A DNA stretch of 45,997 bases from Bacteroidales bacterium (lineage in GTDB: Bacteria; Bacteroidota; Bacteroidia; Bacteroidales; UBA932): NCBI GenBank assembly GCA_017625725.1, contig JAGAKH010000100.1, positions 1 through 45,997 of the forward strand, read 5' to 3'. This document shows positions 23,233 through 36,089 of the stretch, piece by piece. Position numbers and translations under genes: made by a program. A model generated the notes under the pieces. That model was not told the DNA's origin. It made no database searches and was given only the letters and a program-made list of their open reading frames with translations. The number at the start of each line of letters is the position of its first letter. Position 1 is the stretch's first letter.

Positions 23233-24147
23233 TTACTGCTTGTCCTCTTGTGAATACTTGGCAAGTGTCTTCTGAAGTTCGTCTATTACAGCCTGTCTTA
23301 CAGATGTCGGTGAAAGAACTTCAATTCTGCTGCCGTGTCTGCAGAACTCCATAATAAGGTTCTCATCCGGGCATACGAAGATTGAGAATGTGACTGAATC
23401 CTTGTCCGAAGCTATCTCCTCCTGGCTTTTGTGTATTGGGAGATCTTTGAGGAACCTTGCTTCTATGTGAGAAGTCTTGAACCTGATGGTCTTACCCTTG
23501 CTTTCAGGGAGATATATGCCGAAACTGGTTGCGAACAATTCATCAATATCGAAATCAGCAGGCATCGTGAATCTTTCCTCGGTTTCTTCCATGCTCATGA
23601 CCCTGTCGAGACCGTAGACGCGAATCCCTTTTCTTTCTATGCAGTATCCTATTATATACCAACGTTTTGCATATTCCTTTACCGCATATGGACGTATTGT
23701 GTACGTCCCGGATTCTGAACTTGTATATTTTCTATATCGGATCTGAAGGACCTTTCCGTCCAACATCGCATTCATGACCGATGTCAGATGACGGTGTCCT
23801 GATGGAATGTCCTCGACAGAAACCCTTCCGGACAATCTTTCCTTACCTAAAGAGAGAATGCTGTTTACCGTAAATGTATTTATCAGCCATGCTGTCTGTT
23901 CATTCTCATCAGTTATATCGTCAGAGAATTCTACGAAATAGCGGTTTGTGCTTCTGTTACACTGGATTGTGATCCCGAAGACTTCTTCGATTGCACTACG
24001 ATGATTGTTGAAAGTCCTTCGTGAATACGGTGAGTCGAACCTGTCCTCCCATCTGTCACTGATTTCATCAAGAGACAGACCTTTCGCACCTGCACGCTGA
24101 AAGGTCTGTACTATCCATATGTATTTTGCAAGAAGTTCTGCAACCAT
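23233..24147 (-). CDS. WYL-domain transcriptional regulator
   Basis: A 304-residue regulator starting at MVAELLAKY. The frame is open further upstream, to 24300, but that part overlaps the HmuY-like gene and looks non-coding. The N-terminal winged-helix domain (about 1-80, GLSLDEISDRW, YSRRTFNNHRSAIEEVFGI) precedes a WYL domain (about 120-220, RYRKYTSSESG and KEYAKRWYIIGYC with W-Y-I) and a WCX-like C-terminal extension. WYL proteins bind ligands, often nucleic acid or nucleotides, and control gene expression in response. Lying inside the operon, 8 bases after the HmuY-like gene and 1 before the S9 gene, it is probably the local regulator. Confidence 0.85.
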   Translation of the reverse strand: MVAELLAKYIWIVQTFQRAGAKGLSLDEISDRWEDRFDSPYSRRTFNNHRSAIEEVFGITIQCNRSTNRYFVEFSDDITDENEQTAWLINTFTVNSILSLGKERLSGRVSVEDIPSGHRHLTSVMNAMLDGKVLQIRYRKYTSSESGTYTIRPYAVKEYAKRWYIIGYCIERKGIRVYGLDRVMSMEETEERFTMPADFDIDELFATSFGIYLPESKGKTIRFKTSHIEARFLKDLPIHKSQEEIASDKDSVTFSIFVCPDENLIMEFCRHGSRIEVLSPTSVRQAVIDELQKTLAKYSQEDKQ

Positions 24148-24155
24148 ATCGGTCC

Positions 24156-24530
24156 TTATCTTATTATCTGCAGCGTATCTTGAATGTATCCCGTTTCGGG
24201 TGCTTCTCTCAAGGTCTGGAAACTCTCTGTGGTGTTTCTCTGTACTCCGCCTTGACCTTTGCCTGACATGCCCCCGTTGGTCTTCAGCCTGTCGCCGCAT
24301 ATGGCAAAGTCCCAGTCAGTCCTCTCAAACCACTCCTTGTCCTGTGTGTCGTCACCGAGCTTGCTGGTTCCAACTACGTCACCTTTTTCAAATGAAAAGT
24401 ATGTCCAGCAGTCATCAGACAGACCTCCGATTACCGTTTCTCCATCCATTGGCGGCTGCTCTGGCCCTTGACTGCATGATGCAGCCAGGATAAGTCCGAC
24501 GCTCAAATATAATATATGTCTTATTTTCAT
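24156..24530 (-). CDS. HmuY-like lipoprotein, N-terminal half only
   Basis: A 124-residue lipoprotein with a signal ending in a lipobox (LAASC, Cys 19), so it is probably anchored to the outer membrane. Residues about 40-115 match my memory of the N-terminal half of the heme-binding protein HmuY: WTYFSFEKGDVVG, then DWDFAICGDRLKTNGG, SGKGQGGVQ and APETGYIQD. HmuY proteins have about 200 residues. Here the protein stops before the middle and C-terminal strands, including the part that carries the heme-ligating histidines in Porphyromonas HmuY. The missing C-terminal half is found at the end of the preceding gene. Spacing of 20 bases upstream and 8 downstream keeps it in the operon. Heme binding should not be assumed. 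Confidence 0.7.
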   Translation of the reverse strand: MKIRHILYLSVGLILAASCSQGPEQPPMDGETVIGGLSDDCWTYFSFEKGDVVGTSKLGDDTQDKEWFERTDWDFAICGDRLKTNGGMSGKGQGGVQRNTTESFQTLREAPETGYIQDTLQIIR

Positions 24531-24550
24531 ATGTCTGTAAAATTAGAGTC

Positions 24551-26074
24551 CTATTCTAGATTCTTTCTTCCGTCAGGAGCATATACATATTTGATCCTGA
24601 TGCTTCCGCTTTCCCTGTCATATTCGGAGAATCGCACTTTGGCATATTTGCCGTCTGCAGTCTTGAATACGAATGGGGCTGCTATCGGTTGTCCTGACTT
24701 GTTGAGCCACTCGATAGGGGAGAAAGAACAACTGTCGGGCTCTACTGCCGGGATGTTGAATATGTTTTCTCCTGACACCAGCTTGACGCCATCGATGTTC
24801 TTGTGGACATATATCTTAGGGTTTTTCGGATCTTCACGGAAATCGTATACCTCGAAAGCCTTCATGAATCCTTCTCCGATCTTAGCACCTCTCGGAGATC
24901 TGATTACAGTAAGGAACCAGTTCGGTTCTTCAACTCCTTCCAGTCGGTCGGAATACTGGCTGAAATCCATTCCGAACTCGAAAAACGAGCCGACACCCAT
25001 TCCCTGCATCTCGTGTTCGCCTCCCTGGTGATTGAAGATGCTGAATCTGTAGTTGTGCTTAGGATTCTCGTCGGTGTTGTTATCACTGAAACCGAATCTG
25101 AATGAAAGGTCGTTTCGGGAAGTATAGTCCAGAGCGACCTTGAAGACAACATCCGGATGATCGACATATTCAGGTATTATTCCCATCAGTCCGTTGTTCA
25201 ATTCAACCGAAGTGTGTTCGCTTAGGAAGAACCAATATGGAAGGTAGTATCTTCCCCTGTCATGGTTCCAGTAATCTTCTCCATAGGAGTTGACGACTAT
25301 GAATGCCCCCTTGCTGACCTTGCCGTCCGGACGGGTGAATTCTATAAGGTCATCATAACCTACAATCGTCATTGCGTGCGCACCGTCATATGCCAGTTTG
25401 GTAAGCACGCAATTATAGCCAGTCTCGGAAGGACCGGAATATGAGGTATCGAACTTCCAGCCTGTCGCCTGTGAAGAAAAGGTAAGGACTCCTCCCTTTC
25501 TGCCGGCTTCTCCTTTATTGTAAAGATATTGCTTTACTTCAAGCAGGCTGGTTGTGTCCGTAATCTCGAGATTGATGAAGTTGTCTCCTTTATAATGCAT
25601 GGCATTAAGATACTTCTCGAATCCGCTGGCCCATTTGAACTGGTAAAGAGGAAAGTTTACGGGGAAGTCGGCTTCTGTCATGATTCCGTTGCTGGTGGAC
25701 ATCTGAAGTCCGTCGAACTGGAATGACCCTTCATCTTTTCCGTCGTTGACCAGATTCCATGTGTACATGTAGCTGAATCTGTTTTCCGGAGTCGATGCGT
25801 CTCTGTCCAGAAGGGAATTCATTTCATATGTGAACATGTAACCAATTGACGATGCCTGTGCACATGAACCTCCTCTCTGATTGAAGATCGGAGGGAAATG
25901 TCTGCTTGTAGAGTTGTCAACTGATACAGGAAGACCAGTCGGTGCTGACGGAGCCTTCCACACCTTAGCTTCTACGCCCATGACAGTCCTGGTCATAGGC
26001 AAGGACTGCCCTGTCGCTATAAGCGGACAGAGCAGTACCATTATTGTCAAAGAAAAATTTAATATAGTCTTCAA
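24551..26074 (-). CDS. Secreted papain-like (C1) cysteine peptidase with HmuY-like C-terminus
   Basis: A 507-residue exported peptidase. The start codon is TTG and overlaps the stop of the preceding gene by four bases (TTGA). It is needed to give a full signal peptide (residues 1-23, ending ATGQ). The papain catalytic set is visible: oxyanion Gln66 and Cys71 in FNQRGGSCAQAS, His233 in GAHAMTIVGY, Asn262 in VVNSYGEDYW. Residues about 290-440 form an additional beta-rich region. The last 40-60 residues (FVFKTADGKYAKVRFSEY, then IRIKYVYAPDG) match the C-terminal strands of HmuY, of which the next gene encodes the N-terminal half. It lies between the gingipain-like genes and the HmuY-like gene in one operon. 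Confidence 0.85.
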   Translation of the reverse strand: MKTILNFSLTIMVLLCPLIATGQSLPMTRTVMGVEAKVWKAPSAPTGLPVSVDNSTSRHFPPIFNQRGGSCAQASSIGYMFTYEMNSLLDRDASTPENRFSYMYTWNLVNDGKDEGSFQFDGLQMSTSNGIMTEADFPVNFPLYQFKWASGFEKYLNAMHYKGDNFINLEITDTTSLLEVKQYLYNKGEAGRKGGVLTFSSQATGWKFDTSYSGPSETGYNCVLTKLAYDGAHAMTIVGYDDLIEFTRPDGKVSKGAFIVVNSYGEDYWNHDRGRYYLPYWFFLSEHTSVELNNGLMGIIPEYVDHPDVVFKVALDYTSRNDLSFRFGFSDNNTDENPKHNYRFSIFNHQGGEHEMQGMGVGSFFEFGMDFSQYSDRLEGVEEPNWFLTVIRSPRGAKIGEGFMKAFEVYDFREDPKNPKIYVHKNIDGVKLVSGENIFNIPAVEPDSCSFSPIEWLNKSGQPIAAPFVFKTADGKYAKVRFSEYDRESGSIRIKYVYAPDGRKNLE

Positions 26075-28191
26075 TTCAGTCTCTTTAAGGTCTTGATTAT
26101 CTCTTTTCTTACCTTTTCAGATTCTACACCTGCATCAAGTGTCTTCTGGAGAGTTTCCACAATCTGTGCCTTTTCTGTAGATCTGAGGTACCATCCGAGA
26201 ACCTCAGCGGCAACTGTACGCAGATACTCGTCTTCAGAAGCATCCTTAACCATGTCGAGCATTACAGGAATTGCAGGGAGTACCTTGTTGTTCCTGAATG
26301 TTCTGATGGCGTCTACTCTTTTGAGTACATCAGCTTCCTTATCAGCAGCTACAGCTATGTATCTCTGGAATGACTTCCTGACATTGATGACTTCGAGGGC
26401 ACCTTGAGCTGCATAGTTTGACCTGATCATTTCAGGATGCTCCTTCAGGAACTTTTCAAGAGGCTCTACCATTGTAGCATCAGCAGCATCGCCTGCAATG
26501 TGGCAGCTTGTACGTACAATGATTTCGTATGGGTCGTTGATACCCTTCTTGATGGCCTTGAGAGTGTTTGCGTCAGCATATTCCCTGAGAGTGTTGAGGG
26601 CGTGTGCCCTTACAATCCATGAAGGATCGTTCTCAAATACCTGAAGAGCGATGTCGGAGCCTTCCTGCTCACCGATATAGCCGAGGTGGGTTACACCGAT
26701 TGCACGAAGAACCGGATTCTCTGATTCGATGTATTTCTTCCAGACCTTAGCCTTGCCGAGATTGAATACGAGGTCCTTGTGGAGCTGCTCGATCATCTTT
26801 GCGTCTTCAGCCTTAGGTGCAAAACGGTAGGTTGGGTCACCGATCATGTGGCCTTCGAGGAAAGGTACCTCCTTCTGCCACATTCCGACTCTTTCACCGA
26901 GTCCGACCATTCCGAGAAGCTTGTCTTCCCATTTGTCCTGAAGCACGTTTACTGTATTTCCCTGTGCTACAACGCAGTCTCCGTTGCTGAATACGTGGCA
27001 TCCGGCAACATATCCTTCCTCATTGTGGAATGAACCATTGTAACATGCGTTGAAGATCACCATCCTTGCGTTGCTGTTCAGCTTCATGAGCTCGTCAAGA
27101 GTGATGTTGATAGACTCTCTTTCACGCTTTACGACCTCTGTGTAATGTGCAAGTGCAGAATCACTGAATGCCTCTCTTGGAATCTGGAACAATGAATCCA
27201 CTTCGTGAAGGAAAGGTTCCTCGTCCGGTGTACCCTTATAGCGGAGGAACATTCTTCCAAGCGTCTTCTTAAGCTCTTCGAAACATTCTGCAAGCCCTTC
27301 AACAGCAGCACCTCCATTGATGTACTGAGTGTCATGGGCACCATGCTCGCTGAACTGGAAGAAGTCTACACCCTTTCTCTGGATCTCATTGAACAGATAC
27401 TTCTGCATTTCCTGATTCTGACGGAAATTGAGGAATCTGTTTGTTGATGACTTGTCGAAACAACCTGGGAAGTTCTCTCTGAACACCATAGGTTTCTGTC
27501 TCCAGTAGGTAAGGCAGTCTGAGTTGTATCCGTGTCCTGCGAAGAAGGTCATGTTGTCAAGAGGATTTTCTTCCTGATGGGCAGCTACCACCTTCTTAAG
27601 ATATGCCTTCATAATCTCGTATTTGTCTCCCTCCATCACTGCAGGGACCTTCATACGTGCAGAATATACCTCAGGTCTGAGAGACTGTGCTCCTGTTTCA
27701 GACAGTCTGTAGTAGAAAATGTCAGGACGCGTTTCATCTTTCTGGAGGAATTCGAACTCAAGGTCGAAGTCATCATAGTATCTGTCTGATGCTACAGATG
27801 ATTCGAAGATATTGAACTTCTCCTCGTTCATCTTGAAAGCAGTAGTAAGATGCTGACCTTCCCTTACCATTACGATAGGAACGTCACCGACGAATACCAT
27901 ACCCTCAAGGCGTGGCTTCGCATACGCGATGTCTGCGATGACAGCCTTGATCTCTTCCGGACTTGTCCACTCATCTGCGATGATATATGTAGCGAGACCT
28001 TCGCTTTCGAGGACGTCGCGGTAGCTGTGCAGTTCATCCTTGCACTTGTCGTAAGTTGCCTGATCAGTAATGATAGCAAACGAAGTCTTGGCCTTCTTAC
28101 CGCACTTTATGAATGTCATTTCGCTCTGTGCATATGCTCCGAACGCAAGTGCAAGAGCAGCTATTGATATAAGAAACTTTTTCATACTCAT
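26071..28191 (-). CDS. Gingipain-like (clan CD) cysteine peptidase with HEAT-like repeats, copy 1
   Basis: A 706-residue exported protein with a signal peptide (ending AYAQ near residue 21). MKKF at 28185 is an alternative start. The domain at about 35-455 resembles C25 peptidases: hydrophobic strand MVFVGDVPIVMV (98-109), SDRYYDDFD (135-143), catalytic His283 in FSEHG and Cys383 in VIFNACYNG, then HMIGDPTYRF (448-457). Residues about 480-700 are helical HEAT-like repeats (AIGVTHLGYIG, VRAHALNTLREYAD, VAAEVLGWYLR). No C-terminal type IX secretion domain is seen, so it is probably periplasmic or surface-held by partners. It is paralogous to the preceding gene. Confidence 0.8.
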   Translation of the reverse strand: MSMKKFLISIAALALAFGAYAQSEMTFIKCGKKAKTSFAIITDQATYDKCKDELHSYRDVLESEGLATYIIADEWTSPEEIKAVIADIAYAKPRLEGMVFVGDVPIVMVREGQHLTTAFKMNEEKFNIFESSVASDRYYDDFDLEFEFLQKDETRPDIFYYRLSETGAQSLRPEVYSARMKVPAVMEGDKYEIMKAYLKKVVAAHQEENPLDNMTFFAGHGYNSDCLTYWRQKPMVFRENFPGCFDKSSTNRFLNFRQNQEMQKYLFNEIQRKGVDFFQFSEHGAHDTQYINGGAAVEGLAECFEELKKTLGRMFLRYKGTPDEEPFLHEVDSLFQIPREAFSDSALAHYTEVVKRERESINITLDELMKLNSNARMVIFNACYNGSFHNEEGYVAGCHVFSNGDCVVAQGNTVNVLQDKWEDKLLGMVGLGERVGMWQKEVPFLEGHMIGDPTYRFAPKAEDAKMIEQLHKDLVFNLGKAKVWKKYIESENPVLRAIGVTHLGYIGEQEGSDIALQVFENDPSWIVRAHALNTLREYADANTLKAIKKGINDPYEIIVRTSCHIAGDAADATMVEPLEKFLKEHPEMIRSNYAAQGALEVINVRKSFQRYIAVAADKEADVLKRVDAIRTFRNNKVLPAIPVMLDMVKDASEDEYLRTVAAEVLGWYLRSTEKAQIVETLQKTLDAGVESEKVRKEIIKTLKRLN

Positions 28192-28195
28192 GTTT

Positions 28196-30367
28196 TTATC
28201 TCATATAGGCCTTAAGTCTGCCGTTTGTCTTTACAACTTCATCACGTACTGCTGCAGGTATTTCTGCACCGCTGTCGAGGAAAGCCTGAAGCTTGTTGAC
28301 TATGTCTCCTCTGTTATGTGCCCTTACATACCATCCGAGTACTTCTGCACATTTCACTCTGAGCTTTTCGTGTTCGGCACCATCTGTAACGATGTCGATA
28401 AGACCGTCTGCAAGAAGCGGATACGGGCAGTTTCTCATACCGCTGATATAAGATGACCTTCTGCCAGGCTTCTCTTCCTTGTTCTTGATATAGTCTTCGG
28501 TCATGTCGCGGATACCGATAGCACTCTTGAACAATCTGCCCTCTTCCTTCTTGAATTTTTCCTTGTCGAAGATGAATTCAGATTCATCGACAGTCTTGTA
28601 GAACTCATCAAGGAATGTGTTTCCAGGGAAATAGCCAGCTGTGAATCCGATGTTGAATCCTACGCGGAGTGCGTTGTACTCGTTGAGATACATCTTCGCA
28701 AGGTCCTTAGCGAACTCCTCCTTGCCGACTTTGCCAAGGAAGTAGCAACCTTTTCTTCTGATGAATTCGTATGGATCATCGAGTGACTCCCTGAGAAGAG
28801 TCTCATAGTTCTCGTCGTAGTAGTGTGCGAGAAGATGCTGGCACTGGAGTCTGAGCATGTAGTAGTCTGACTTTCTGAATGTGTCGAGAAGAAGGTCTGA
28901 CATACCCTCGTATTCGAGTGCAAAGAGCTTGTGAAGTGCAAGTCCCTGAATATCGCATGGATACTTGTTGTCAAGATATGAGAGCCAGTATGCTGTGTCC
29001 TTGTTCATCAGGTATGGCTTTTCGAAATCGAAAGCAGACTCAAATCTGAAAGTAGGGTCTCCGATGACATGTGATTCGAGGATGTGCACCTGCTGCTGCC
29101 ACTGACCTACGCTGTAACCGCATGAGAGCATACCCATAAGGTCAGATGAAGACTTGTCCTGAAGAACGTTCACAGAGTTGCCGAGACATACTATTGCATT
29201 ACCGTCTGACATGATGTATCTGTTTGCCACCCAGTCAGATTCACGGAAGTCACCGTTGTAGCATGCATCGAAAAGAGCAACCTTTACATTAGGGTTTGCA
29301 GCTGCGATGTCGTCGAGCACGATACCTGTCTTCACGTCGGCAAGCGAGTCTGCCTTGATCATTTCAGGATCGAACGCGTTAACGAACCAGCTTGTGTCAA
29401 TTCCGTAGCTTTTCTGGATTTCTGCAATCGCCTCTTCGCGTGTCTTTCCTCTGTTTACGAGTCTTCTGAAGTAGCTTCTTGCATTAAGTTTTCCCAGTTC
29501 ATAGAAAGAATTCATGTCTTCTGCAAGAGGCTGACCTGTCAGGTACTGCCTGTTTGGAATTCCGTGCTCGTGGAAGAGAACCATGTCAAGATCATTTCTC
29601 TGGATCTCAGAGATCATGAATTCCTTCATGTACGGATGCATCGCCCAGGCATAGAACTTGGCACCGTCACCGGTCTTGAATACCTGAGGCATCTGCTCCT
29701 GAAGAGTAACGGTTTCGTCCTTCCATGCTACGAGGCTGTTAGAGAATGAACCGTCACCAGTGTATGAGGTCACTTTGTCAAGTGTGTTCTTTTCCTTTTT
29801 GGTCCTTACAACCTTGCGGAGGTACTTCGAGAGTTCCACATATTTGTCCTGTCTGTCTGATGACGGCTTGATACGTCCTGAATAGATGTCACATGTGATG
29901 ATCTGCGGTGACTCAGGAGCAAGATTGTAATAGAAGAAGTTGGTCTCTACGCTGTCTCTCTTGACAAAGTTGAACTTAAGGTCAAAGTCATCGTAGAACC
30001 TGTCAGAAGGAACGGATGTCTCTCTGATTGTGAATCCGTCCTCGTTCATCTTGAAGGCTGATGTGAAGTGCTGTCCCTTTCTCACCATTGCGATAGGAAT
30101 GTCTCCTACGAAAACGGCACCTTCAAGCTTTCTGTTCTTGTAGAAATGGAAGAGCGTGTCCTTGATCTCAGTTGGACAAGCCCAGTCCTTCTCCAATACA
30201 AAAGCATCAAGTCCGTCATTTGCGACGGACTCTCTGTAATCTTCTATTTCATTTTTGCAATGTCGGTAAGTCTCTGAGTCAACGACGATTGCAAATGAAT
30301 TTTGAGCTTCGGCTACTGCTGTAGCTGCGATAGCTGCAATAGTAAATGCTATCAGTTTTCTTTTCAT
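28196..30367 (-). CDS. Gingipain-like (clan CD) cysteine peptidase with HEAT-like repeats, copy 2
   Basis: A 723-residue exported protein with a signal peptide (ending AEAQ, residue 22) and the same plan as its downstream paralogue. GAVFVGDIPIAMVRKGQH is at about 83-100 and SDRFYDDFDLKF at 121-132. The catalytic dyad is His268 in LFHEHG and Cys369 in ALFDACYNG. GNSVNVLQDK and HVIGDPTFRF follow, and then C-terminal helical repeats (about 480-723). The two copies share these blocks but differ in loops and repeat sequence, which suggests distinct substrates or interaction partners after an old duplication. It lies 6 bases after the DUF6850-type barrel gene. Confidence 0.8.
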   Translation of the reverse strand: MKRKLIAFTIAAIAATAVAEAQNSFAIVVDSETYRHCKNEIEDYRESVANDGLDAFVLEKDWACPTEIKDTLFHFYKNRKLEGAVFVGDIPIAMVRKGQHFTSAFKMNEDGFTIRETSVPSDRFYDDFDLKFNFVKRDSVETNFFYYNLAPESPQIITCDIYSGRIKPSSDRQDKYVELSKYLRKVVRTKKEKNTLDKVTSYTGDGSFSNSLVAWKDETVTLQEQMPQVFKTGDGAKFYAWAMHPYMKEFMISEIQRNDLDMVLFHEHGIPNRQYLTGQPLAEDMNSFYELGKLNARSYFRRLVNRGKTREEAIAEIQKSYGIDTSWFVNAFDPEMIKADSLADVKTGIVLDDIAAANPNVKVALFDACYNGDFRESDWVANRYIMSDGNAIVCLGNSVNVLQDKSSSDLMGMLSCGYSVGQWQQQVHILESHVIGDPTFRFESAFDFEKPYLMNKDTAYWLSYLDNKYPCDIQGLALHKLFALEYEGMSDLLLDTFRKSDYYMLRLQCQHLLAHYYDENYETLLRESLDDPYEFIRRKGCYFLGKVGKEEFAKDLAKMYLNEYNALRVGFNIGFTAGYFPGNTFLDEFYKTVDESEFIFDKEKFKKEEGRLFKSAIGIRDMTEDYIKNKEEKPGRRSSYISGMRNCPYPLLADGLIDIVTDGAEHEKLRVKCAEVLGWYVRAHNRGDIVNKLQAFLDSGAEIPAAVRDEVVKTNGRLKAYMR

Positions 30368-30373
30368 ATCTTA

Positions 30374-31945
30374 TTAGAATACGATTCCGAATGAGGCTTT
30401 TGCTATGATTCTGTCTGTATCAAATCCCATAGGTTTGATATAGTCAGCCATCACGTTAAATACGTAGCCGATCTTCTTGGTGTTGAGTGTGTATGAAATG
30501 TGTCCTCCGGCCTTGGCATAGCCAGTCTTGTAATACTCGCTGTTGTTTCTGTACATCTGGACCGGAATGTATGTAGCGTTCTTTCCTGTGAAGGTATAGT
30601 TGGAGCCGAGGCCCAGTCCATATCCTCCGTTAAGCTTTACCAGCAATGATGAAGACTTGAACTTGAACTGCTTTCCTCCGAACACATTTGCAAATGCAGT
30701 GGTTGCGTTGAATCTTGATTCAGGCAGGAAATAGATTTCGTTCCTCATGAGGAAATCCCCGTTTGCACCTACGATCCAGTCATATCCCTTAGGGTCGCCT
30801 GCTCCGAACTGATGGTCGTAGCCGAATGAAGCGACCATGCTTGTGAATTTGCTCATGTTGTTCTGGCTGATGACCATATAATACTGGTTAGTAGCAGATT
30901 CTGTGGTGATCTTCTGGATGTATTCGGTTCCTGCCGTAGTCTTGTACTGGCCGTCAATCCAAAGTCTGTTGCTCTTGTTCTGTCCGAAGAGGAGCGTAAT
31001 CTTACCCTGGATGTCGGTCTTGTCTGTCGAACCTTCCTTAAATGGAAGATCCGGATTTGAAATCACATGCGTGATGCTCTTGAGGAAAGACAGGTCTGCG
31101 AGAAGTTCTGCATTTCCTGCGTATCCATACTGAAGTGCACCTCCGAATATGTTGTTGCTGAACATGTAATCCTTGATTCCGTCATTTCTACCAACCTTTC
31201 CTCTGATCGATTCACCAAGTCCCTTGTGAAGGTATACAGCCTGATCCACCCAGTTGTTCTCGTTGCTCGGATCCGATCTCTCAAATCCGTTCTGATATAT
31301 ACCGCTGAGTCCTATAAGGCTTTGGCCGAGCTGTATTGCTACAGAAGGCTTGATGTTCAGAGAGTATTTGTAAGTCTCGGCACGAGGGTCAAGCTGTTTT
31401 GCTCCGACCTTGTTGATGTATCTTACATCCACTCCGAAAGATACCCTGTCCCAGAGAACAGGTGAGGCAAGTTTGGCCTGAAGGTCATATTCCTGCTTCT
31501 GCCAGCCGCTGTTCTTGGTTGTGTCGATAGGGTAGTATGGCATGTCTTCATCAATCTCATACATCAGGGCATTCATGTTGCAGCCCTTGTCAAAGATGTT
31601 TCGGAAAGAGAATCTACCCCACACCAGGAATTTGCCGATGTAGGTCGAGCCGCTCGTATTCAATGTCACATTGTTACGCTTTGCCGCTTCCTGCTGTTTA
31701 CGGAATTCTCCTGCATTGTTCTCATAATTGATGTTGAGGTCCTTATACATCTCGAAAGGCCTGAATGCAAGACCTGCTGTGTTGTTGCTTTCCATCCATG
31801 GGGCATTTCTGAAGTTTGTCTCTTTGAGAACTTCATTGCTGATCTTATAGGATGGACTGCTGTCTTTTTCAGCAGTATTATTGCCGGCCTGGGCGGCAAT
31901 GATGCCCAGGCCTGACAATAACGCTATTAAGGTAATTCTCTTCAT
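30374..31945 (-). CDS. DUF6850-type outer-membrane beta-barrel protein
   Basis: A 523-residue predicted barrel with a signal peptide (residues 1-20, ending AQAG). The mature part consists of alternating amphipathic strands (TYIGKFLVWGRFSFRNIF, VSFGVDVRYINK, LLVKLNGGYGLGLGSNYTF), with a final strand ending in Phe (KASFGIVF). It matches the DUF6850 family, which is known mainly from its position next to TonB-dependent receptors and DUF4876 lipoproteins in Bacteroidales. No function is established. It sits 15 bases after the DUF4876-type gene. Confidence 0.78.
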   Translation of the reverse strand: MKRITLIALLSGLGIIAAQAGNNTAEKDSSPSYKISNEVLKETNFRNAPWMESNNTAGLAFRPFEMYKDLNINYENNAGEFRKQQEAAKRNNVTLNTSGSTYIGKFLVWGRFSFRNIFDKGCNMNALMYEIDEDMPYYPIDTTKNSGWQKQEYDLQAKLASPVLWDRVSFGVDVRYINKVGAKQLDPRAETYKYSLNIKPSVAIQLGQSLIGLSGIYQNGFERSDPSNENNWVDQAVYLHKGLGESIRGKVGRNDGIKDYMFSNNIFGGALQYGYAGNAELLADLSFLKSITHVISNPDLPFKEGSTDKTDIQGKITLLFGQNKSNRLWIDGQYKTTAGTEYIQKITTESATNQYYMVISQNNMSKFTSMVASFGYDHQFGAGDPKGYDWIVGANGDFLMRNEIYFLPESRFNATTAFANVFGGKQFKFKSSSLLVKLNGGYGLGLGSNYTFTGKNATYIPVQMYRNNSEYYKTGYAKAGGHISYTLNTKKIGYVFNVMADYIKPMGFDTDRIIAKASFGIVF

Positions 31946-31960
31946 TTAAGAATTGTTTAA

Positions 31961-33229
31961 TTATTTAATCCATGTATTCCATGATGGAACCTTAGCTCCG
32001 TTTCTTCTGAGGACAGGAGTTGCCTGTACCTCGAAGTCGTCAGTAGTGTTGTTGGTGTCAGCATACTTAGGTGAACCGTTAGCAAGTGTACCGTTCTGCT
32101 TTCTTGCAACACTCTGAGATGTGTAAGTTCCGTCACACCAGATATATCCTGAATCGAGGATTTCTGGCATACCGAGAGTCTGGACACGTGTCTCGTCGTC
32201 AATCATCTGAACTGCATCGAGGATGTCAGTGATCTTGATCTCAAGAAAGTTCTGAACCCAGTCAGGATCGTTGTTCACGAGGAAGTCTTCTGTTCTGAGC
32301 GGTGTGCTAGGCTTGAAGAGGATCATGTTCGATCCACCTACACCTGTGAGCCACTGTGGTGGAGCGTAGCCTGCAGCATTTGCACCCATCGTCATGTTTA
32401 TAGCAGCACCGTCAGTGATTACGATACCGTTCCAGAGAGTGCTCTCACCTTCGATTGCCTCGAATTCAGCACCTGTAAGGTCAACTGGTGAACCGCCCTT
32501 TGAAAGCTCCGGTGCCTTGTGGTTTGTAGCCCACTGAGCGATGATGAATGACTCACCTGGCTGGATAGGGTAGTCGTCTCCGTCACCAGGAAGCTGCCAT
32601 ACGATCTGAGCGAACATATACTCCTTGTTTGAAGCCTGTGTGCCGTCAGCGAAATAGAACTCATAGTAGAGGCTGTAGTCATAGCTTGCGAATTCAGTTT
32701 CGCAGATGCAGAGACCGTCAGCGTAAGCTACCTCATCAGAGTTGTTGTAGATTTCGTAGAACTGGTCGCGGAAATATGTGCTGGTAGAAGGCTTGCCTTC
32801 TTCATCAACCTCACCTGTCTCATAGCGGCTTCCTGTATAGTAGATCTCCTTGAAGATGAGCTGAGATTCCTTCACCATGTCAACTTCAATCTTGATTGTC
32901 TCGCCCTCTGTAAGAAGGTTAAGATCCTTAATAGCACCTGTGATTGAGTAGAATGTACCGTCCTCAGCAACGCTGGCCTTAGCCATTACGGTGTAGATAC
33001 CAGGAACGATGCTGGCAGTAGCCTTACCGTTTTCTGTCTGAGCTGTTGTAGCAACAGTAGTGCTAGTGTTTGTGAAGGTCACCTCGTAAGCCTCAGGCTT
33101 GATGTCGCCGAGCTTGCTCTCATCGATTTCAACTGTAACGTTGATTGTCTGGATGCCTCCCTCGCTAGGGTCGCAGCTTGTAACTACAGCTGCGAATGCA
33201 CAAAGTGCAGCAAAAAACATTCGTTTCAT
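31961..33229 (-). CDS. DUF4876-type surface lipoprotein
   Basis: A 422-residue lipoprotein (lipobox AVVTSC, Cys 19, followed by Asp-Pro). A carboxypeptidase-regulatory or Cna-B-like beta domain comes first (about 28-118: TVEIDE, ATASIVPGIYTVMAKAS). A lamin-tail-like domain follows (about 125-420), with LIFKEIYYTGS, DQFYEIYNNSDEVAYADGL and PGESFIIAQWATNHK. The family accompanies TonB-dependent receptors. It is probably a cell-surface binding partner of the receptor encoded 28 bases upstream, though it is not a SusD homologue. Confidence 0.8.
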   Translation of the reverse strand: MKRMFFAALCAFAAVVTSCDPSEGGIQTINVTVEIDESKLGDIKPEAYEVTFTNTSTTVATTAQTENGKATASIVPGIYTVMAKASVAEDGTFYSITGAIKDLNLLTEGETIKIEVDMVKESQLIFKEIYYTGSRYETGEVDEEGKPSTSTYFRDQFYEIYNNSDEVAYADGLCICETEFASYDYSLYYEFYFADGTQASNKEYMFAQIVWQLPGDGDDYPIQPGESFIIAQWATNHKAPELSKGGSPVDLTGAEFEAIEGESTLWNGIVITDGAAINMTMGANAAGYAPPQWLTGVGGSNMILFKPSTPLRTEDFLVNNDPDWVQNFLEIKITDILDAVQMIDDETRVQTLGMPEILDSGYIWCDGTYTSQSVARKQNGTLANGSPKYADTNNTTDDFEVQATPVLRRNGAKVPSWNTWIK

Positions 33230-33257
33230 AATGATTTGGTTTTTATAGGGTTAATAT

Positions 33258-36089
33258 TTATCTCAATGATACCTTAAGTTCGAATCCGAAGAAGATAGGA
33301 ATACCGAGTTCTGTGTATCCTGAAGATGCTATGTTTTTGTGAAGTATCCTGCTGTTGAGGAAGTTGTTCACATAGAATGAAGCTGTCATCACATCTCCGA
33401 TCTCCTTTGTCAGGTTGAGGTTGAATATCGCATAAGGGATATACTGCTCAACAAGGAATCTTGATTCTGACAGTGACGGGTACATGTAGGAGAACTCAGG
33501 ATCTTTTCTCATCTGCTCGTTCTTTGCAGCAATCTCGTCTTCTGCAAAGAGGTTCACTTTTCCGTCCACATGGCTTATATATCCTATGAACATGTCATCC
33601 CTCTTGTAGGTACTCCAGAACTTTGAATACCAGTTGAACTCACCTGTGAGTGTGATGGCGAATCCGATACGTGGGATGTTGTGGGTGATTCTGAGTGTGG
33701 TGTTCAGACTTTCGTTGAACTCTGTCTCCAGTTCAGGCTCATATATACCTATATGCTTTACTGCAGTTCCTGCTGGTACTCGATCACCGAATGCATATCC
33801 CTTGTTCTTGAATTCTCCACGCATCCATGCTCCGTTGATGTAGAATGAAGTGTTGATAGCGTCAAATCTTCCAAGGTCGATTTCATACTCGATACCGCTG
33901 TTATGCGATACGTAGTTGTTCATCGGCTTGTATGTCTGGAAGAAGAGGTTTCTCCATTTGTCTGGGCTTGACAAAGCAAGGGTAGGGATTGTTCCCGGAT
34001 TAAGCTGAGCCACAACGTACGGCTTAACTGTGTAATAGTGGAAACAGCTGAAGTCACGTCCGAAGTTGTAACCGTTCTCCATGAGCTCGTCGTAAGCTGT
34101 GATGCTTACTCTGAAACGTTTGGCTACAGTGAAGTCCATACCGATCTCAGCCTTTCTGTTTGTGGCAATCTGAAGGTCAGGATTCTCGGTGTCGTATACT
34201 GTTGTCTGGGCAAGGAGAAGTCTCTCTGCTTCAGGGGTATTCACGTCCATTCCGTTATAGAGGATGAGGTCGTGGTATGCCTTGTTAGGATTAAGATAGA
34301 TTGATGTCGGAGCCTTGCTCGTGATACCCCAACCTCCTCTTACTGTCATCCAAGGGAAGACATCGAGTGATGCGTTGAAACGTGGTGCAAACACGTTCTT
34401 GCCGTTGATCCAGTCGTATCTGATACCGGCTGTAACATTAAGTTCCCTACGTGCGAATCTCCAGCTGAAGATGTTTTCTGCGTAGGCACCGATCTGGGTG
34501 ATGAACGGAATGTCATAGTAAGGTCTTCTTCTGAAACCTGATTCGGTGTTGTCAACACTTCTCCAAGGTGGTGCTGTGTCGTCGAATACTGTTCCTTCAC
34601 CAAGGTTACCGTCAGTCTTGAAGTCTCCGCCGACGAGAAGTCTCTCGGATACATTGCCCCAATTGTGTCCCATATCGAAATTGATCTTGGCAAAGGCATT
34701 GACCTCCTTTCCGTAGATGTTATATCTGTATGGGTACGAATATGGGAGGACTGTACCTGTCACCTTCTCATCTGAATGAAGTGTTGTGACTGTATTGCCT
34801 TCTATATCCTTGTACTCCAGTCCGCCGATATTGGTGTATATTCCGGTCGTCATGGCGGTTGAGTAGAGGTTCATTGCATTTGATGCAGTGTTTCTGTAAT
34901 ATGAGTCCTTGTCAGTGTAGCTTCCTGACAAGAGCCAGTTGATTGACTTGAGCCATGCTCCGTTGATGAAGGACTTACCGTTATGGTTGAAGGTCACATT
35001 GATGTTCTCTGCCTTTGACTCATTGATCACATCATCATCAGGATTCCTGTCTCGCTTCTGGTTTGCATAAGAAAGCGAGAGGGAGGTGTTGGCTGTCGTG
35101 TTCTTTGCGAACATTACAGACCAAAGGGCCTTGATATTAGCTCTCTGATACTTATTGAGGTTGTTTATAATCTCTTGGATGTTATAAGCATAGTCTCCGG
35201 AAATGTTCAGGTCACCGGCTCTCTTTCCGAGGCCGAATCCTTTTGCCGCAGACACCTGATAGATGTTAGGATTAGTCTTGAATCTGAGGGTAAGAGGAGA
35301 CTTTCCGGCTTTTGACTTGACGATCACTGCTCCAGATGTCATGTCACCGTATTCAACTGAAGGGATACCTCTGATCACTTCTACAGACTCGATATTGTCG
35401 GTAGAGAGTGAACGGATGTCCACACCGCTTGCAGCTGATGCACTACCTGACAGGCCATTTTCTGCTTTGGTCTCGCCGGCTATGGATGTTGAAAGCACCT
35501 GAAGATTGGCGTTGTTTGACATAGGGGCTCCGTCCACGATGATTGCCGTACCGAGGCTGTTGACAGCAAGTCCGTTGTTGGATCTGATGGAGATGGACTG
35601 TGCACTTGAAAGATTAGGATTTGACACGCTTACTCCAGGAAGGAGTGCCATCACGTCCTTGAGTGAACTTGTCTGCATGTGGTCCATTGCCTGTCTCGAG
35701 ATGTTTGATGCGGTACTGCTTCCCGCTTTGTTCTGGGTCGCGGTTACTGTCAGGGTCTCGATGTGGAAAGATACCGGTCTCATCTTGAGGTCGAGGTGAG
35801 TGATCTTGCCTGGCTTGACAGTGAAGACGGTGTCGACCTTTTCCATTCCGAAGAACTGTATGGAAAGTGAAACCTCTCCAGCCGGAACTCTTTCGACAGT
35901 GAATGATCCGTCCTTGTCTGTCATGGTGTACTGGTTGGACCTTTCAAGCACGACGCTTGCGAAATCAATCGGAAGGCCGTCATCTGAACAATGTACGGAA
36001 CCAGTAATTGTTGCTGTCCTGCTGTTCTGAGCCGAAAGGGAAAGACCGGCTGCAAGTATGCAGAAAATGACTGTTACAATTCTTTTCAT
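33258..36089 (-). CDS. TonB-dependent outer-membrane receptor
   Basis: A 943-residue receptor and the first gene of the peptidase operon. It has a signal peptide (residues 1-20, LSLSAQ) and a carboxypeptidase-regulatory-like domain (about 27-112). The plug domain (about 125-270) contains LKDVMALLPGVSV, TAIIVDGAPM and VEVIRGIPSVEYGDMTSGAVIV. A 22-strand type barrel reaches the C-terminus. An NPDL motif (ENPDLQIATNRKAEIG) and a SKAPTSIYLNP segment stand where heme receptors have NPDL and FRAP, but these occur in other receptors too. Linked peptidases suggest that the ligand is a peptide, or heme or metal released from protein. Confidence 0.88.
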   Translation of the reverse strand: MKRIVTVIFCILAAGLSLSAQNSRTATITGSVHCSDDGLPIDFASVVLERSNQYTMTDKDGSFTVERVPAGEVSLSIQFFGMEKVDTVFTVKPGKITHLDLKMRPVSFHIETLTVTATQNKAGSSTASNISRQAMDHMQTSSLKDVMALLPGVSVSNPNLSSAQSISIRSNNGLAVNSLGTAIIVDGAPMSNNANLQVLSTSIAGETKAENGLSGSASAASGVDIRSLSTDNIESVEVIRGIPSVEYGDMTSGAVIVKSKAGKSPLTLRFKTNPNIYQVSAAKGFGLGKRAGDLNISGDYAYNIQEIINNLNKYQRANIKALWSVMFAKNTTANTSLSLSYANQKRDRNPDDDVINESKAENINVTFNHNGKSFINGAWLKSINWLLSGSYTDKDSYYRNTASNAMNLYSTAMTTGIYTNIGGLEYKDIEGNTVTTLHSDEKVTGTVLPYSYPYRYNIYGKEVNAFAKINFDMGHNWGNVSERLLVGGDFKTDGNLGEGTVFDDTAPPWRSVDNTESGFRRRPYYDIPFITQIGAYAENIFSWRFARRELNVTAGIRYDWINGKNVFAPRFNASLDVFPWMTVRGGWGITSKAPTSIYLNPNKAYHDLILYNGMDVNTPEAERLLLAQTTVYDTENPDLQIATNRKAEIGMDFTVAKRFRVSITAYDELMENGYNFGRDFSCFHYYTVKPYVVAQLNPGTIPTLALSSPDKWRNLFFQTYKPMNNYVSHNSGIEYEIDLGRFDAINTSFYINGAWMRGEFKNKGYAFGDRVPAGTAVKHIGIYEPELETEFNESLNTTLRITHNIPRIGFAITLTGEFNWYSKFWSTYKRDDMFIGYISHVDGKVNLFAEDEIAAKNEQMRKDPEFSYMYPSLSESRFLVEQYIPYAIFNLNLTKEIGDVMTASFYVNNFLNSRILHKNIASSGYTELGIPIFFGFELKVSLR

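Follow-up and report, generated by a model that had tools for sequence, protein, structure and literature searches.

The described protein closest to the locus reported here is HmuY of Porphyromonas gingivalis (PF14064; 3h8t), whose partners in the hmu operon are the HmuR receptor and the CobN-like HmuS. According to the published topology text (PMC2671838), two sheets pack into the β-sandwich of its palm, sheet I (β1, β6 and β13–β15, with connectivity +4x, −1, −1, −1) and sheet II (β2–β5), and heme is ligated by His134 on thumb strand β8 and His166 on finger strand β11. Read from this connectivity, the order of strands in sheet I would be β1-β15-β14-β13-β6. The two adjoining genes that we describe here, encoding a lipoprotein and a peptidase, align with the N-terminal and the C-terminal portion of the HmuY profile, respectively, but differ from the family in forming two polypeptides, in their permuted order, in the absence of the heme-binding thumb and fingers, and in the involvement of a peptidase partner. 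Fimbrial donor-strand complementation, exemplified by P. gingivalis Mfa, offers a parallel in that strands of one protein would complete the β-sandwich of another, as the topology suggests for our pair; unlike the fimbrial case, however, the present one would involve a three-strand meander, a HmuY fold and a peptidase joined to a lipoprotein, and fimbrial genes were not seen in the cluster that encodes the split pair. Papain-like (C1) peptidases, among which Lpg2622 (6a0n) is the nearest solved match, share the conserved catalytic residues, whereas the peptidase studied here additionally has a HmuY tail and a partner lipoprotein. Finally, two iron-regulated loci, BT1933–39 and PG1019–22, resemble the cluster by annotation alone, both in a TonB-dependent receptor and a DUF4876 protein and the former also in a HEAT protein. 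In the portion of PMC10434189 that covers these genes, they are upregulated 3.5–7.4-fold and 20.8–214.5-fold, respectively, under iron limitation, and BT1933–39 is annotated as a transposase, hypothetical proteins, HEAT, DUF4876 and a TonB receptor.

The window (the whole 45,997-nucleotide stretch of DNA analysed here, from a Bacteroidales bacterium) carries on its minus strand a seven-gene cluster (24156–36089). Its first gene encodes a TonB-dependent receptor (33258..36089; PF07715 plug, E = 1.6e-13; PF13715, E = 3.8e-12), followed by a DUF4876 protein (31961..33229; PF16215, E = 1e-27), a DUF6850 protein (30374..31945; PF21012, E = 7.6e-81) and two HEAT-repeat proteins predicted to be clan-CD-like (gingipain-like) peptidases (copy 1, 28196..30367, HEAT_2 below cut-off; copy 2, 26071..28191, HEAT_2), which share the same His-Gly/Ala-Cys motifs. 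The cluster ends with a 507-aa papain-like cysteine peptidase (24551..26074), whose TTG start overlaps the stop of the preceding gene, and a 124-aa lipoprotein (24156..24530) with a signal peptide and, by pattern, a lipobox at Cys19. The five genes upstream of the peptidase lie on the same strand, with 4 to 28 bases between neighbours or a 4-base overlap, and peptidase and lipoprotein are spaced 20 bases apart. A WYL/WCX-domain regulator (23233–24300, minus strand) is encoded immediately 3′ of the lipoprotein gene. Scanning for promoters and terminators yielded fewer sites than in shuffled sequences and was therefore uninformative.

The initial annotation had assigned the N-terminal part of a HmuY-like domain to this lipoprotein and the C-terminal part to the end of the peptidase, and profile searches place both segments in the HmuY family, the peptidase tail at the level of a family profile. 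Residues 40–119 of the lipoprotein (24174..24413) match positions 3–72 of the 157 in PF14064 (E = 3.6e-13; 50.4 bits against a cut-off of 27) and align to positions 14–95 of the 3h8t chain, with matches among PDB chains to 8b61 (E = 3e-11), 8b6a (3.8e-7) and HmuY 3h8t itself (3.8e-6). Residues 462–496 of the peptidase (24587..24691) match positions 119–157 of the Pfam profile; as a single sequence this tail is weak (E = 5.6e-4; 20.5 bits, under the curated Pfam cut-off), and the last 99 residues of the protein matched 8b6a at E = 0.011 and 3h8t at E = 1.2, the latter amid unrelated matches of similar strength. Across relatives, PF14064 was found in all 48 lipoproteins scanned (E ≤ 0.01) and, at E ≤ 1, in 22 of 47 peptidases taken singly, with no HmuY match in the other 25. 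The signal becomes clear when the tails are pooled: an alignment of 49 tails (from 47 complete close loci, the window and one further locus, L118) matched 26 full-length HmuY proteins at E = 2.4e-11 (hhalign score 65.0), a test limited by the origin of these references in one family sample, and the lipoprotein family profile matched the same 26 proteins at E = 7.2e-20. Because the tail score far exceeds those of 100 column shuffles (≤ 17.9), of the alignment read backwards (14.4) and of 13 peptidase segments short of the matching strands (≤ 13.9), the HmuY likeness of the tail is, at the family-profile level, not chance. The 27 individually weakest tails still matched HmuY as a group (E = 2.9e-9), and an RTAxG motif is present in 33 of the 49 tails and absent from 16, including that of the window (KTADG).

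The middle of the domain is found in neither gene of the pair. HmuY profile positions 73–118 were matched in neither window gene, a search of the whole genome at E ≤ 1 (assembly ~80% complete) returned no further HmuY segments, and in HmuY profile columns the family match of the lipoprotein stops at 89 while that of the tail starts at 135. Matches to the C-terminal part (E < 1) in the scanned loci were confined to peptidase frames. Along the minus-strand transcript the C-terminal part precedes the N-terminal part, so one frameshift cannot account for the split, as had been argued from the window at the outset; this order would fit the residue of a tandem duplication followed by partial deletion. 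Mapped onto 3h8t (residue number taken as chain index + 25, on the assumption that the 191-residue chain starts at 26), the lipoprotein covers residues ~39–120, ending before the thumb, and the tail ~180–213, starting after the fingers. Taken together with the published topology text, this alignment would make the lipoprotein β1–β6 and the tail β13–β15, such that the lipoprotein would lack three strands between its β1 and β6, and the peptidase would have just those. The thumb and fingers (β7–β12), which hold both histidine ligands, appear to be missing from the pair: of the 16 residues that contact heme according to the table and text of PMC2671838, 13 align to the absent stretch (~121–179), both histidines included, in agreement with the earlier view that the heme-ligand region seems absent from both genes. 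In addition, 18 of the 26 full-length HmuY proteins carry Arg-Tyr at HmuY 79–80, as against 0 of 49 split lipoproteins. The rebuilt domain would thus probably not bind heme.

We propose that a β-sandwich of the HmuY type is shared out between two exported proteins from adjoining genes. The lipoprotein would contribute β1–β6 of the palm, and the peptidase tail would contribute the meander β13–β15, slotting in between β1 and β6 of sheet I and completing the lipoprotein's fold by three-strand donor complementation; fold completion would in turn fix the papain-like peptidase to its lipid-anchored partner. Since the heme-binding thumb and fingers are gone, the rebuilt domain would provide coupling and not act as a hemophore. 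The pair may also be linked to iron or heme supply. The obligatory pairing described below and the exact complementarity with the published HmuY sheet order strongly suggest that the halves assemble and that the peptidase is tethered, and we assign the whole account, in which the tail completes the lipoprotein β-sandwich and tethers the peptidase without heme, a probability of roughly 0.68.

The split proved to be a conserved trait of related loci, where the initial annotation had pointed for fused or split homologues. A scan of genome contigs retained 80 of 85 loci, 52 of them closer (L037–L088) and 28 distant, and five of the 52 end with the contig inside the peptidase. A half-HmuY lipoprotein lies directly 3′ of the peptidase in all 47 remaining, complete close loci and in none of the 28 distant ones; these 47 loci are not 47 independent events, because near-duplicates occur (for example, L038/L039 and L062/L063). 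Within a sample of the window's family, the peptidase was found in 5 of 149 genomes, with matches to the N-terminal part alone in the same five. In a sample of the Paraprevotella clara family, it was found in 13 of 201 genomes (E ≤ 1e-60), 12 of which had an N-part match; the thirteenth, G520, which shares a contig with L051, was seen to encode the lipoprotein on reading its DNA, showing that the N-part search can miss lipoproteins. Across both samples, the peptidase occurs in 18 of 350 genomes and the lipoprotein in all 18, and no N-part-only matches were listed outside those 18, in a search that can miss some. The peptidase–lipoprotein system spans many gut and rumen Bacteroidales, including the commensal P. 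clara (L062), a species in which deletion mutants have been made (PMC9477747). Our search of the open-access literature found no title or abstract on a split HmuY, which is not proof of its absence from print.

Gene spacing, estimated with start codons picked by rule, has a median of −4 bases from peptidase stop to lipoprotein start, the two genes overlapping in 31 of 47 loci, 23 of which show an overlap of exactly 4 bases, an arrangement that favours matched synthesis of peptidase and lipoprotein. In a quick tree from which four loci were excluded, a single branch (SH-aLRT 100) separates the split peptidases, 50 of the 78 rows, from the rest, indicating that the split arose once. Distances between peptidase cores and between lipoproteins correlate at 0.65 over 48 pairs (maximum of 0.16 in 2000 permutations), and the correlation of 0.38 between tail and lipoprotein distances, with the core removed, is suggestive only and may reflect shared history. 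In a clade of nine loci (L069, L071, L073, L074, L076 and L078–L081), the lipoprotein is without the stretch that follows the glycine-rich motif. All of these loci except L071 also have a shorter peptidase linker before the tail strands, a possible joint shortening.

Several other readings of the pair have to be weighed against tethering. Secreted cysteine peptidases often have an inhibitor or a chaperone in the small protein encoded beside them, and both the obligatory pairing and the apparently coupled synthesis would suit a lipoprotein that pairs with the tail for control, helping the peptidase to fold, inhibiting it or activating it, with anchoring secondary. Contact is expected at the C-terminal tail, however, outside the catalytic domain, and the lipobox agrees with anchoring; we regard control as unlikely. 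The halves could also make no contact at all, having been recruited separately, with the tail packed on the peptidase's own β-domain and the lipoprotein folding by itself or binding a different protein of the cluster, for instance the TonB-dependent receptor. In favour of such independence, the contact between tail and lipoprotein is something we infer from sequence; but separate recruitment would need a coincidence of complementary fragments, both without thumb and fingers and always co-occurring, and it strikes us as improbable.

The receptor at the head of the cluster, together with the iron response of the annotated counterparts as given in PMC10434189, would fit a split hemophore, in which heme released from proteins by the peptidases is bound by the rebuilt HmuY domain and handed to the receptor. 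The missing heme-contact residues, both histidine ligands among them, and the lack of Arg-Tyr at HmuY 79–80 nonetheless make a working hemophore very unlikely. The brevity of the tail's single-sequence match and its score under the Pfam cut-off might raise the suspicion of chance similarity, or of frameshift decay of a single hmuY gene, but both are contradicted by the profile controls, the pairing in 47 of 47 loci, the single well-supported clade and the reversed order. Chance similarity of the C-terminus is excluded by the shuffles, the reversal and the other peptidase segments, and frameshift or decay by the genome search, the pairing and the profile controls, such that we give this last explanation almost no credence. 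A peptidase tethered through completion of the lipoprotein's β-sandwich remains the reading that we prefer.

We also considered the enzyme itself and how its relatives are held. Across the 47-row peptidase alignment, His233 and Asn262 never vary, and at least 90% of rows have Gln66 and Cys71; we take these residues to be the oxyanion Gln and the Cys-His-Asn triad. PF00112 was detected at E ≤ 1 in 30 of 47 relatives (best, 6.5e-7) and not in the window peptidase, and the family profile matched Lpg2622 (6a0n) at E = 1e-10 over the His/Asn region. Judged by these alignments, the protein is a papain-like peptidase with conserved catalytic residues. Distant relatives have longer C-terminal regions, partly with T9SS sorting domains, which scored above cut-off in two of six relatives scanned and below it in two more. 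No such domain was found in the window peptidase (NCBIfam, E ≤ 0.01), on which ground we rejected T9SS anchoring for this protein, and a sorting-domain search of the window's own genome gave one match, below cut-off and away from the locus. Among 23 hand-chosen genomes reached through loci, a survey with positives among them, SprA was present in 5 of 5 distant genomes and 8 of 18 split genomes; with 10 of 18 split genomes lacking SprA, the split system therefore exists without a detectable T9SS. SprA was likewise not found in the window's incomplete genome, by a search that matched no control there either. The split HmuY domain would stand in for the longer C-terminal regions of distant relatives, some of which carry T9SS sorting domains, and the split system may have replaced the T9SS in this role.

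Lipid anchoring of the partner is indicated by a lipobox, detected with a simple pattern in 42 of 49 lipoproteins. Placement at the cell surface, as the initial annotation had envisaged, finds little support: at least two acidic residues within four positions after the cysteine occur in 12 of the 42, and the window's lipoprotein has none there.

Beyond the pair, the gene neighborhood is itself conserved. Upstream sequence of at least 7600 bases was available for 42 split loci, and there we found the receptor in 41, DUF4876 in 40, at least one HEAT frame in 40 and at least two in 36. A DUF6850 match was obtained in 24 loci; where it was missing, a long unassigned frame occupies the position in 15 of 18. 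No match to these cluster genes (receptor, DUF4876, DUF6850, HEAT) was seen in the 28 distant loci. As exceptions among the split loci, L047 has the block on the opposite strand and L087 is without HEAT proteins. The HEAT protein was found in 19 of 202 genomes, and 13 of these also have the split pair. Among the remaining six, five have a shorter cluster and the locus of the sixth is cut by the contig. The shorter clusters (L151–L155) comprise the receptor, DUF4876, DUF6850 and a single HEAT protein; neither a papain-like peptidase nor a half-HmuY lipoprotein occurs in the fetched stretch, and the peptidase–lipoprotein pair therefore seems to have joined, as a module, a cluster that already existed. 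The trypsin locus of P. clara (00502–00509) was dropped as a candidate; in the portion of PMC9477747 that deals with it, 00502 is Omp28-related, 00509 is hypothetical, and neither HmuY nor a lipoprotein is mentioned.

In a broader formulation, for which we put the odds slightly short of even, Bacteroidales would have evolved a T9SS-free way of fastening a peptidase, once exported, to a lipoprotein: an old hemophore fold cut in two, stripped of its heme-binding appendages and turned into a dedicated tag-and-socket pair within an iron-linked TonB gene cluster, and kept across a broad range of gut and rumen lineages. If true, this would be a natural and conserved case of a domain split between an enzyme and a membrane anchor, in permuted order, its ligand-binding appendages gone and its β-sandwich kept. 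Short lipoproteins of the 'HmuY family', otherwise taken for hemophores, would gain a testable function; predicted peptidases would be linked to a TonB gene cluster with iron-responsive counterparts by annotation; and the split pair could serve as a natural split tag.

The HEAT-repeat proteins of the cluster present features of their own. His-Gly and Ala-Cys are invariant in 16 aligned rows, and these motifs we presume to be those of clan CD (gingipain-like) peptidases; neither HEAT protein of the window matched a clan CD profile in Pfam, NCBIfam or PDB searches, the relevant matches being of the HEAT type. In one locus (L088:3579–7967), the two clan-CD-like HEAT proteins are seemingly fused into a single frame of 1463 codons, and two divergent split loci (G534:C18 and G612:C42) have about four consecutive HEAT-protein frames rather than two.
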